A DNA stretch of 32,338 nucleotides, from positions 1 through 32,338 of the forward strand of contig JAGOUM010000036.1 in the NCBI GenBank assembly GCA_018061265.1. Reading direction: 5' to 3'. Both the position numbers and the translations under genes were made by a program. Numbering within the stretch: the first letter of the stretch is position 1; every line of letters starts with the position of its first letter. The notes under the pieces were generated by a model. It was given only the letters and a program-made list of their open reading frames with translations. It had not been told where the DNA came from and did no database searches. Origin of the DNA: Rhodoferax sp. Its GTDB lineage: Bacteria > Pseudomonadota > Gammaproteobacteria > Burkholderiales > Burkholderiaceae_C. Shown in pieces: positions 28,953-31,142 of the stretch.

Positions 28953-29434
28953 TTGGTTGTCCCTCGTGCAATACACGGCGCATGGTGGAGACGGCGGCGC
29001 ACCTCACTGGTCATGTGTTCCCATGACTGCCGGTGCGTCAGTGGGTGCTGTCGGTTCCCAAGCGGTTGCGTTACTTCATGCAGCGCGACGGGGCGGTGCT
29101 CAACATGTTGCTGTGCATCTTCTTGCGGGTCATCGCGCAAACTCTGCAGACTCACAGCCCCAGCGCGGCAAATGTGGATGAGGCGACCCTGCACATCGAC
29201 GCAGTCGCTTTCATTCACTGGTTCGGCTCCAGCCTGAACGGCCATGTGCACTTTCATGTCTGTGTGGTGGATGGGGTGTTTGAGCAGGTAACTCTCTGCG
29301 AATGGACTACCCTGGAGCAGCCGCTGGTGGTCGACCGGTTACGCTGCGCACTTGACCTACGGAAAGACCAGATCAATGAACGGAATCAGCCTTTTGCCGT
29401 CGAAAAGATCGAATTTCTGCACGGCCACTCCTAG
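28950..29434 (+). pseudogene. Broken IS91-family transposase
   Basis: From GCPSCNTRRMVETAAHLTGHVFP the frame matches the zinc-binding part of IS91-type (HUH, rolling-circle) transposases. It is interrupted by a TGA at 29024-29026, where the family has Arg (CGA), and resumes in the same frame with LPVRQWVLSVPKRLRYFMQR and AVAFIHWFGSSLNGHVHFHVCVVDGVFE. After about 29290 the frame stays open but no longer resembles the family, so the 3' part is missing or replaced. Both ends are truncated, so this is a dead relic. Confidence 0.75.
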
Positions 29435-29700
29435 TCATTTGGTGTCGTCGAGCTCGATCAGCTCAACCTGAGGGGTGCGGTTGCGGCTCATAACCCCCAA
29501 ATCAACTTTTAGGCAGGGTGATTGGGTCATGCGACCGGGCTTTGGGGCGAAAGGCGCGCGCCAAAGGTAGGCACCAACCACAGACCGCTCCCGCGCGTGA
29601 TTTCGCCGCAAAACCGCATGCGCATGGCCCAGTCGCCATGCCGCACATGGCATCTGCCGCCGTGATCAAGCCCAGCTTCGAACTCTCCAGCTAGACCTCA
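29435..29700. other. Unassigned sequence downstream of IS91 relic
   Basis: No gene recognised. A short minus-strand frame ends in RTPQVELIELDDTK but has no supporting context. This stretch joins the mosaic patch to the DAHP synthase leader. Confidence 0.4.
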
Positions 29701-29717
29701 CGGTCCGACGACTGTGC

Positions 29718-29723
29718 TACATT
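29718..29723 (+). promoter_or_regulatory. Candidate -10 element of the DAHP synthase leader
   Basis: TACATT lies 8 nt before the leader-peptide ATG, which would make the leader transcript start at or just before that codon. No good -35 is seen at the expected spacing, so this is tentative. Confidence 0.35.
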
Positions 29724-29731
29724 TGCCGCCC

Positions 29732-29815
29732 ATGAAGATGGTCGGTTTCTTTTTTGCGTACTTTTGGTTCTCAAGCGCCTGTTGCGGCGGTAGAGAGTTT
29801 TTAAAGCGTTCATAA
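29732..29815 (+). CDS. Aromatic leader peptide of the DAHP synthase attenuator
   Basis: A 27-codon frame encodes a peptide with FFFAYFWF at residues 6-13 (six Phe/Tyr/Trp codons within eight, plus one more Phe), then SSACCGG and a TAA stop. Such a run of Phe, Tyr and Trp codons ahead of an intrinsic terminator is the signature of translation-coupled attenuation, as in Escherichia coli pheA. A ribosome stalled on the aromatic codons (29747-29770) would cover CGCC at 29776-29779 and free CGGCGGT at 29785-29791 to act as an antiterminator. The mixture of all three aromatic residues matches the product of the pathway's first enzyme, encoded downstream. Confidence 0.85.
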   Translation: MKMVGFFFAYFWFSSACCGGREFLKRS

Positions 29816-29845
29816 AGTAACGACCTGAATCCTCAAAAACCGCCG
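29776..29845 (+). promoter_or_regulatory. Antiterminator and pre-emptor pairing region
   Basis: CGGCGGT (29785-29791) is perfectly complementary to ACCGCCG (29839-29845), the left arm of the terminator, giving the antiterminator. The same CGGCG strand can instead pair with CGCC (29776-29779), an early hairpin that would sequester it. These are the mutually exclusive structures expected of a trp/phe-type attenuator. Confidence 0.7.
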
Positions 29846-29865
29846 GCCAACCCGGCGGTTTTTTT
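29835..29865 (+). terminator. Intrinsic terminator (attenuator) before DAHP synthase gene
   Basis: A stem of ACCGCCGG (29839-29846) with CCGGCGGT (29852-29859), a 5-nt loop CCAAC, flanking A-run/T-run pairing, and seven T residues (29859-29865). It is the strongest terminator in the window and lies between the leader peptide stop and the structural gene start. Confidence 0.92.
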
Positions 29866-29903
29866 ATGCGCTTTTGTTTCAACCCCACAACCAGGAAAAC
29901 ACC

Positions 29904-31049
29904 ATGAATGCCAAAGCCGTGACCTCCGACCACGACAACTGGAGCAGTTCTTTGTATCCCAACAGCACCGACAGAACCGGTGAGACGGACAACGAACGCA
30001 TCAAGGACATCACTGTGTTGCCACCACCCGAGCATTTGATACGGTTTTTTCCGATTCAGGGGACCCCGGTTGAAAAGATGATCAGCCAGACACGGCGCAG
30101 CATTCACCAGATCATGGCTGCAAAGGACGACCGCTTGCTGGTGGTAATAGGGCCGTGTTCGATCCATGATCCGGCCGCCGCCATGGACTACGCCCGCCAG
30201 TTAAAGGCACAGCGCACCAAATATGCTGATTCGCTCGAAATTGTCATGCGGGTCTATTTTGAAAAACCGCGCACCACTGTCGGCTGGAAAGGACTGATCA
30301 ACGACCCGTATCTGGATGAGAGTTTTCGTATCGATGAAGGTCTACGCATCGCGCGACAGTTACTGATTGAAATCAATCGCCTGGGCTTGCCAGCCGGCAG
30401 TGAGTTTCTGGATGTCATTTCGCCTCAATATCTGGGTGACCTGATTGCTTGGGGTGCGATCGGCGCACGCACCACAGAGAGCCAAGTGCATCGTGAACTG
30501 GCGTCCGGACTTTCCGCTCCGATCGGGTTCAAAAATGGTACTGACGGCAATATCCGGATTGCCAGTGATGCGATTCATGCTGCGGCAGGGGGGCATCACT
30601 TCCTGTCGGTGCACAAGAACGGGCAGGTTGCCATTGTGCAGACCAAAGGCAATCGAGACTGCCATGTGATTTTGCGCGGTGGCAAAACCCCGAATTACGA
30701 CGCGGCCAGTGTGACGGCCGCCTGTGCCGAGCTGGCAAAGTCCAAACTTCCGCAAACCCTGATGGTGGACTGCAGCCATGCCAACAGCAGCAAACAGCAC
30801 GAGAAACAACGCGACGTGGCAGCCGACATCAGTGCACAGATTTCCAGCGGGTCCAGGCAGGTTTTTGGGGTCATGGTTGAAAGCCACCTCAATGCAGGTG
30901 CACAAAAATTCACACCAGGGAAAGACACCACCGATCAGCTTGAATACGGCAAGAGCATCACTGACGCCTGTCTGGGTTGGGACGACTCACTGTCTGTGCT
31001 GGAGATGTTGTCCAAGGCGGTGCTGACGCGGCGAGCCGCCGCCCGGTAA
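29904..31049 (+). CDS. aroG: 3-deoxy-7-phosphoheptulonate (DAHP) synthase, class I
   Basis: The 381-residue enzyme condenses phosphoenolpyruvate and erythrose 4-phosphate, the first step of the shikimate pathway. Class I AroF/G/H motifs are present: VVIGPCSIHD (about 81-90), EKPRTTVGWKG (about 115-125), GFKNGTDG, GGHHFLSVHKNG, DCSHANSSKQ and MVESHLNAG, covering the substrate and metal ligands. It is about 25-30 residues longer at the N-terminus than the E. coli isozymes. The ATG at 29904 follows CAGGAAAA; an earlier in-frame ATG at 29874 lies next to the terminator. Which aromatic amino acid inhibits the enzyme cannot be read here, so the aroG symbol is by family. Expression is probably set by the upstream attenuator. 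Confidence 0.93.
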   Translation: MNAKAVTSDHDNWSSSLYPNSTDRTGETDNERIKDITVLPPPEHLIRFFPIQGTPVEKMISQTRRSIHQIMAAKDDRLLVVIGPCSIHDPAAAMDYARQLKAQRTKYADSLEIVMRVYFEKPRTTVGWKGLINDPYLDESFRIDEGLRIARQLLIEINRLGLPAGSEFLDVISPQYLGDLIAWGAIGARTTESQVHRELASGLSAPIGFKNGTDGNIRIASDAIHAAAGGHHFLSVHKNGQVAIVQTKGNRDCHVILRGGKTPNYDAASVTAACAELAKSKLPQTLMVDCSHANSSKQHEKQRDVAADISAQISSGSRQVFGVMVESHLNAGAQKFTPGKDTTDQLEYGKSITDACLGWDDSLSVLEMLSKAVLTRRAAAR

Positions 31050-31088
31050 CTGAAGGAGTGTGCCGGTACCCATCGACAAAATTTAAGG

Positions 31089-31142
31089 AAAACTGGCGTC
31101 TAGCGCAATACGGGTGGACTTTCTAAGCTATCTATTTTGAAT
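31089..31142 (-). repeat. Dispersed ~55-bp intergenic repeat, inverted copy overlapping the mpl end
   Basis: Read on the minus strand it runs CAAAATAGATAGCTTAGAA, then GCGCTAGACGCCAG and TTTTCC, matching the pattern of the other copies in reverse. The last codons and stop of mpl lie inside it, so the repeat supplies the gene's final residues. Confidence 0.5.

Follow-up and report, generated by a model that had tools for sequence, protein, structure and literature searches.

A DAHP synthase gene in the source genome is preceded by an element that is very likely a ribosome-mediated transcription attenuator. The element joins a leader peptide frame rich in aromatic codons to an RNA with three alternative pairings, one of which is an intrinsic terminator in front of the gene. 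Comparison with relatives shows that the leader is conserved and that the pairings are kept and partly covary. A model of the stalled ribosome predicts that the switch lies where the aromatic block ends.

Anatomy of the locus

We refer to the whole 32,338-nt stretch of DNA analysed as the window, and all features described here lie on its forward strand. An extended −10 box, TGCTACATT (29715–29723), without a clear −35 sequence, is the putative promoter of the leader. The leader peptide frame comprises 27 codons and TAA (29732–29815, with the stop codon at 29813–29815; translation MKMVGFFFAYFWFSSACCGGREFLKRS) and is predicted to be leaderless. Its putative aromatic sensor codons, FFFAYFWF, occupy 29747–29770. 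Segment 1, UUCUCAAGCGCC (29768–29779), has segment 2, GGCGGUAGAGAG (29786–29797), as its partner in an anti-antiterminator hairpin. Segment 2 can instead pair with segment 3, CCUCAAAAACCGCCGG (29831–29846), the arm common to the antiterminator and the terminator. Segments 3 and 4 with the T tract make up the intrinsic terminator (29835–29865, fold of −18.4 kcal/mol), which reads AAAAACCGCCGG-CCAAC-CCGGCGGTTTTT (29835–29863) with seven T from 29859. Beyond it lie AGGA, a Shine-Dalgarno-like site (29893–29896), and the predicted regulated gene, a class-I DAHP synthase of the aroFGH type (29904–31049), which scores 527.8 bits against TIGR00034 aroFGH (cut-off 173.2).

An earlier note on this DNA had claimed a 27-codon frame with FFFAYFWF, an early CGCC/GGCG hairpin, a CGGCGGT antiterminator strand complementary to the left arm of a strong intrinsic terminator, and a DAHP synthase start after that terminator. 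We recovered each of these: the frame base for base, the hairpin at 29776–29789, the CGGCGGT strand (29785–29791) complementary to ACCGCCG (29839–29845), the terminator at 29835–29865 and the ATG of the gene at 29904. The pairings extend beyond those of the earlier note, by UUCUC/GAGAG in the first hairpin and by GAG/CUC in the antiterminator. When folded, the RNA of 29732–29880 is more stable than its shuffles (z of −2.57).

Simple terminator and promoter scans of the locus missed the element; in our reading, the terminator scan missed the hairpin because A-T pairs swallow the T tract. A scan of 29400–31100 against Rfam 15 returned no family above its gathering score. The nearest of its kind was Phe_leader (RF01859), at 22.2 bits against a gathering score of 55 (E of 0.85). 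Just 5′ of the leader promoter lies a fragment of a Y2 transposase (29033–29434, forward strand; PF04986, 33.3 bits, 40 residues matched), which is the remnant of a mobile element. By eye, the sequence that precedes the promoter in several relatives resembles a gene end in VGGTA.

The source genome has a second DAHP synthase (L002, contig C36), shortly 3′ of a gene that we take to encode a sensor-kinase, and no aromatic leader was found in the 330 bases preceding it. A third match to PF00793 (L003) is presumably KdsA, judging by its sequence and an enolase-like neighbour.

Conservation of the aromatic leader

A DAHP synthase match at an E value of 1e-20 or better was found in 149 of the 150 genomes of the source family, our own counted. 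From the 148 other family genomes with a match we compared 140, the 120 best-scoring and 20 lower-scoring. A leader was counted where a frame preceded by a start codon held at least five aromatic residues in nine codons. The earlier note had staked its interpretation on a leader frame conserved in close relatives with its aromatic codons unreplaced, and the interpretation survived this comparison. An aromatic leader lies 5′ of the gene in 137 of 140 family relatives (119/120 best-scoring and 18/20 lower-scoring), and at least six aromatics in nine codons are present in 113 of the 120 best-scoring. The reverse complements of the same regions, used as a control, gave 0/120 and 0/20. Two of the three misses (L099 and L328) have four aromatics in nine codons, and the third (L331) is cut by a contig end that leaves only 143 bases upstream. 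The 20 lower-scoring loci, 16 of which show the terminator pattern, were used for the leader count alone.

For a profile of the leader, 120 of 121 loci were called with an ATG start, with several ATGs possible in 10; the leader of L079 appears to start with GTG. Phe occurs in the nine-codon core of all 120 called leaders, Tyr in that of 115 and Trp in that of 111; 106 cores have all three. Counted from the last aromatic codon, an aromatic residue occurs at position −1 in 112 of 120, at −2 in 119, at −3 in 101 and at −5 in 111. The commonest residues of the last four core codons in these 120 leaders are Y-F-W-F, with Trp immediately 5′ of the last aromatic codon in 97 loci. Both synonymous codons are used for Phe (TTT 329, TTC 177) and Tyr (TAC 129, TAT 57); thus, it is the residue that is kept, not the codon. 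Segment 2 begins 8–30 bases after the start of the last aromatic codon (11–18 bases in 108/112 loci), and its frame relative to the aromatic codons differs between loci, so that the tail of the peptide follows the needs of the RNA.

Alternative pairings and their covariation

Three pairings compete within the leader RNA. Segment 1 (UUCUC..CGCC) pairs with segment 2 (GGCGG..GAGAG), with a fold of −12.9 kcal/mol in the source sequence, and segment 2 pairs with segment 3 (CCUC..ACCGCC), with a duplex of −16.4 kcal/mol. Segment 3 also pairs with segment 4 (GGCGGU and the T tract). Parsing into segments succeeded for 114 of 121 family loci, each with an intrinsic terminator between leader and gene, and failed for L099, L100, L118, L126, L141, L146 and L149. 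One of the 114 (L137) was misparsed and was excluded from later analyses. The antiterminator and terminator pairings proposed in the earlier note are kept in nearly all parsed loci. The five core pairs of the antiterminator form in 111–114 of the 114 and the core pairs of the terminator in all 114, counts that are favoured by the parser's partial use of complementarity in choosing segment 2. In 104 of 112 loci, a UUCUC-like sequence lies at the last aromatic codon and a GAGAG-like one follows segment 2. The first hairpin is modestly more stable than its shuffles (mean z of −1.07, negative in 105/112), and its mean energy across loci is −10.6 kcal/mol, compared to −18.8 kcal/mol for the pairing of segments 2 and 3.

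We examined covariation in 151 distinct blocks from 200 loci, using 500 shuffles that ignore relatedness. Eight blocks have A-U in place of G-C at one position of segments 2 and 3 (shuffle mean 0.5; no such count in any of the 500 shuffles). Segment 1 reads CGUC in the same eight loci, hence segments 1, 2 and 3 are altered together, while segment 4 retains its G and pairs by G-U. A further locus (L128) combines a changed segment 3 with an unchanged segment 2 and is a possible intermediate of this triple change. A second position has 28 cells in which both sides of the terminator pairing are altered (shuffle mean 5.9) and 15 in which both sides of the antiterminator pairing are (shuffle mean 5.6), each reached in 0/500 shuffles. 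These changes occur in Burkholderia-type and Oxalobacteraceae-type loci, for example CUGGCGG with CCGCCAG.

The evidence from covariation rests mainly on these two positions because the five core pairs are nearly invariant. Since the shuffles ignore relatedness, the covarying changes may represent few events, and the triple change may go back to a single event within one clade. From an alignment of 48 loci, RNAalifold retrieved no more than seven pairs, all in the terminator, and hardly any covariation, in our reading because a single structure cannot accommodate alternative pairings; segments anchored by script were used in place of its consensus. The compensatory changes for which the earlier note proposed a test are thus partly borne out: both pairings are kept, with covariation that is partial, confined mainly to two stem positions and uncorrected for kinship.

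Predicted position of the switch

We modelled the stalled ribosome at 112 loci by the equilibrium fold of the RNA between ribosome and polymerase before segment 4 is made. The footprint was taken to extend 13 bases beyond the first base of the A-site codon, and footprints of 11 and 15 were also run. The mean pair probability of the antiterminator core is 0.97 while the A site stands one, two or three codons short of the last aromatic codon. It is 0.57 with the A site on the last aromatic codon, 0.09 on the next codon and 0.02 thereafter. At footprint 13 the last permissive codon lies at most one codon from the last aromatic in 107/112 loci, so the model predicts that the switch point coincides with the close of the aromatic block. 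In 98/112 loci (95 and 94 at footprints of 11 and 15), the permissive zone, where antitermination is favoured, includes codons for each of Phe, Tyr and Trp.

The equilibrium fold likewise favours the antiterminator when the ribosome is far upstream (0.87 at codon −8), because the pairing of segments 2 and 3 is stronger than that of segments 1 and 2. Any role of the first hairpin must therefore be kinetic. The equilibrium model thus predicts termination only after passage of the ribosome; the untranslated state would be a matter of kinetics.

Start of the leader transcript

The sequence TGnTAnnnT occurs 5′ of the leader ATG in 115 of 120 family loci, at a distance of 6–9 nt in 112 of these (7 nt in 69 and 8 nt in 31). 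A Shine-Dalgarno-like site before the leader ATG was found in 0/120 family loci, compared to about 10% in shuffled upstream sequence. For the DAHP synthase gene, with its start placed by script, 90 of 116 loci have such a site 5′ of the ATG. Because the −10 box stands 6–9 nt from an ATG that has no Shine-Dalgarno-like site, the leader RNA is likely leaderless or nearly so, with the ATG at about +1 to +3. The suggestion in the earlier note that the leader may be leaderless thus gains support from promoter spacing, the start itself being a prediction.

Outside the source family, 22 of 23 named leaders also lack a Shine-Dalgarno-like site. In ten named loci of Burkholderia, Caballeronia and Paraburkholderia, TATAAA stands instead 36–39 bases before the ATG; for Oxalobacteraceae, five of the eight named loci show TATAGT at a distance of 25–27 bases. 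A −10 box near the ATG is again present at three loci of other families (L294, L297 and L306).

Distribution across the order and class

We built a covariance model from 48 loci and explored its matches. The source genome holds one convincing copy (E of 2.5e-21), followed by a match at 0.0046. Full-length matches at an E value of 5.5e-6 or better were found in 77 of 300 genomes of the order, our own counted, and come from 14 families. Of the 76 from other genomes, 49 were checked, including at least one from each of the 14 families, and a DAHP synthase adjoins all 49 (29/29 and 20/20). For three of the latter 20 (L304, L311 and L313), no leader of five aromatics consistent with the model was recovered by the script. 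Across 274 genomes of the class, two of the loci fetched from outside the order (L267 and L268) combine a full-length match with a DAHP synthase. Both belong to one family and have a similar aromatic leader (SFYFWYYFPKPLAEEG in L267), which suggests transfer or deep ancestry.

Weak matches to the covariance model were considered as further copies and rejected as due to chance, a DAHP synthase being found at 0/27 (L235, L237 and L269–L293), including none of the 25 weaker class matches among the loci fetched. Most of the weak matches cover only the 3′ part of the model. Five are full-length (L271, L272, L277, L281 and L285; E of 2e-5 to 6e-4) without a DAHP synthase, and full-length matches are therefore to be trusted only at an E value of about 5e-6 or better. 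A tblastn search of the leader against plasmids returned nothing.

Among 80 named DAHP synthase loci, 63 have both leader and terminator. One of the remaining 17 is cut by a contig end, two (L182 and L197) have only one of the two features, and the other 14 show neither pattern; thus, the element is not universal. The 14 comprise loci of Polynucleobacter (three), Cupriavidus (two), Thauera, Azoarcus, Rhodocyclus, Methylotenera and Thioalkalivibrio, together with one lower-identity locus of Ideonella and three from MAGs that carry the labels of other phyla. The DAHP synthases of the Polynucleobacter and Cupriavidus loci (L184, L186, L187, L191 and L192) have 71–74% identity and stand without the attenuator, which has been lost or replaced there, or else these genes are paralogues.

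The composition of the leader also varies between families. Several leaders of Massilia, Janthinobacterium and Rugamonas have a core without Trp. Phe and Tyr without a core Trp are seen at L218, L219, L221, L223, L226, L231–L233, L247, L249, L254, L256, L294 and L300, as if the Trp input of these other-family leaders had been lost or never gained. The earlier proposal that all three aromatic amino acids are read thus holds for the source family, with all three in 106 of 120 cores, and for Burkholderia-type leaders, and fails for Trp in several related families.

Proposed mechanism and alternative explanations

From the sequence we infer a course of events that runs from transcription start through stalling and read-through to a physiological response to amino acids. 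RNA polymerase would start at the leader ATG or within about two bases of it, and ribosomes would probably load on the leaderless end of the RNA. When charged tRNA-Phe, tRNA-Tyr and tRNA-Trp are all plentiful, the ribosome would clear the aromatic block and cover segment 2, allowing segments 3 and 4 to pair and transcription to terminate ahead of the DAHP synthase gene. Were any one of these tRNAs short, the ribosome would stall in FFFAYFWF and mask segment 1, leaving segment 2 free to capture segment 3; no terminator would form and the gene would be read. The element would thereby act as an OR gate, in which a shortage of any end product acts at the first enzyme of the pathway.

We weighed three other explanations of the locus. 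The hairpin could be a terminator of upstream transcription or a constitutive damper, with the aromatic frame a chance product of U-rich RNA. The aromatic block is indeed T-rich, and the transposase remnant upstream could bring read-through. However, F, Y and W interchange, with both members of a synonymous codon pair in use, the start of the frame keeps an almost constant distance to the conserved −10 box (112/120 loci), and no aromatic frame appears in the 140 reverse strands; we give this explanation scarcely any credence. A different sensor is conceivable: as in TnaC, the nascent leader peptide might stall in the exit tunnel in response to free aromatic amino acids. Its FYFxYFWF-like core is well conserved, and the conserved aromatics could contact the ribosome. 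Against this, aromatics interchange at several core positions, other families have different arrangements without Trp, and stalling on excess would be expected to give the opposite sign with the present RNA layout, all of which makes a nascent-peptide sensor very unlikely.

It is also conceivable that the element is a genuine attenuator whose effective input is Phe (and Tyr) only, Trp being a bystander. Phe codons are the most numerous, and the leaders without core Trp in Massilia, Janthinobacterium, Rugamonas and further families would agree with this. Yet Trp directly precedes the last aromatic codon in 97/120 loci, inside the predicted permissive zone, and we consider a mere bystander role improbable.

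We therefore retain the reading of a ribosome-mediated attenuator. The aromatic attenuator put forward in the earlier note stands as to the conserved leader and the pairings, which are kept and partly covary, with "all three" limited as to family. A broader reading, whose chances we judge to be even, is that of an ancestral betaproteobacterial RNA element. Such an element would combine leaderless initiation with a three-input attenuator, in which scarcity of any one of the three amino acids turns on the enzyme at the entry to the shikimate pathway, and would do the job of TyrR and TrpR in E. coli; some families would have dropped Trp or never gained it.

Relation to known attenuators

Attenuators of the ilvGMEDA type read codons of several end products in one leader. 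They thus share multiple inputs with the present element but respond to branched-chain rather than aromatic amino acids. The enteric pheA, pheST and trp attenuators share its leader, the pairings of segments 1 with 2, 2 with 3 and 3 with 4, and the terminator (PMC11802643), but they control other genes and sense one amino acid each. Closest in the regulated gene is aroR-aroF of C. glutamicum, where an aromatic leader peptide also lies 5′ of a DAHP synthase gene, whose transcription is reportedly raised by ribosome stalling (PMC11802643, PMC4046766, PMC3890552). Unlike the present element, that attenuator is actinobacterial, carries a Phe-Tyr-Phe leader and is reported to respond under Phe limitation; Trp is unmentioned in the available portions of these sources. 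The trpL attenuator of S. meliloti is likewise a proteobacterial attenuator leader, and its RNA is reported to have its 5′ end at the ATG, a possible leaderless mRNA, a start that is predicted in our case; it differs in sensing only Trp and controlling trpE(G) (PMC7298713). In a screen of Shewanella, aroF is entered with an "attenuator sensing tyr-tRNA" (PMC2659441), a hint from another lineage.

We found no description of the element in the available portions of the literature consulted (PMC2965389, PMC11802643, PMC4046766, PMC4833913, PMC2659441, PMC1262725, PMC5688073 and PMC10175445), and literature searches brought up no report of it by title or opening of the abstract. An earlier listing is possible, for example among the 82 short 5′ UTRs in PMC5688073. 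What distinguishes the element from known attenuators is its Trp input, together with a leaderless start, as predicted, and a wide occurrence in the order.

The element would make a new Rfam family, and its predicted leaderless start offers a test case for attenuation driven by leaderless initiation. The presence and absence of the Trp codon across families provides a natural series for change in the input of an attenuator. For the biology of these bacteria, it offers a concrete, testable and widely conserved account of the way in which many Betaproteobacteria may control entry into the shikimate pathway, through one attenuator that would respond to three end products.
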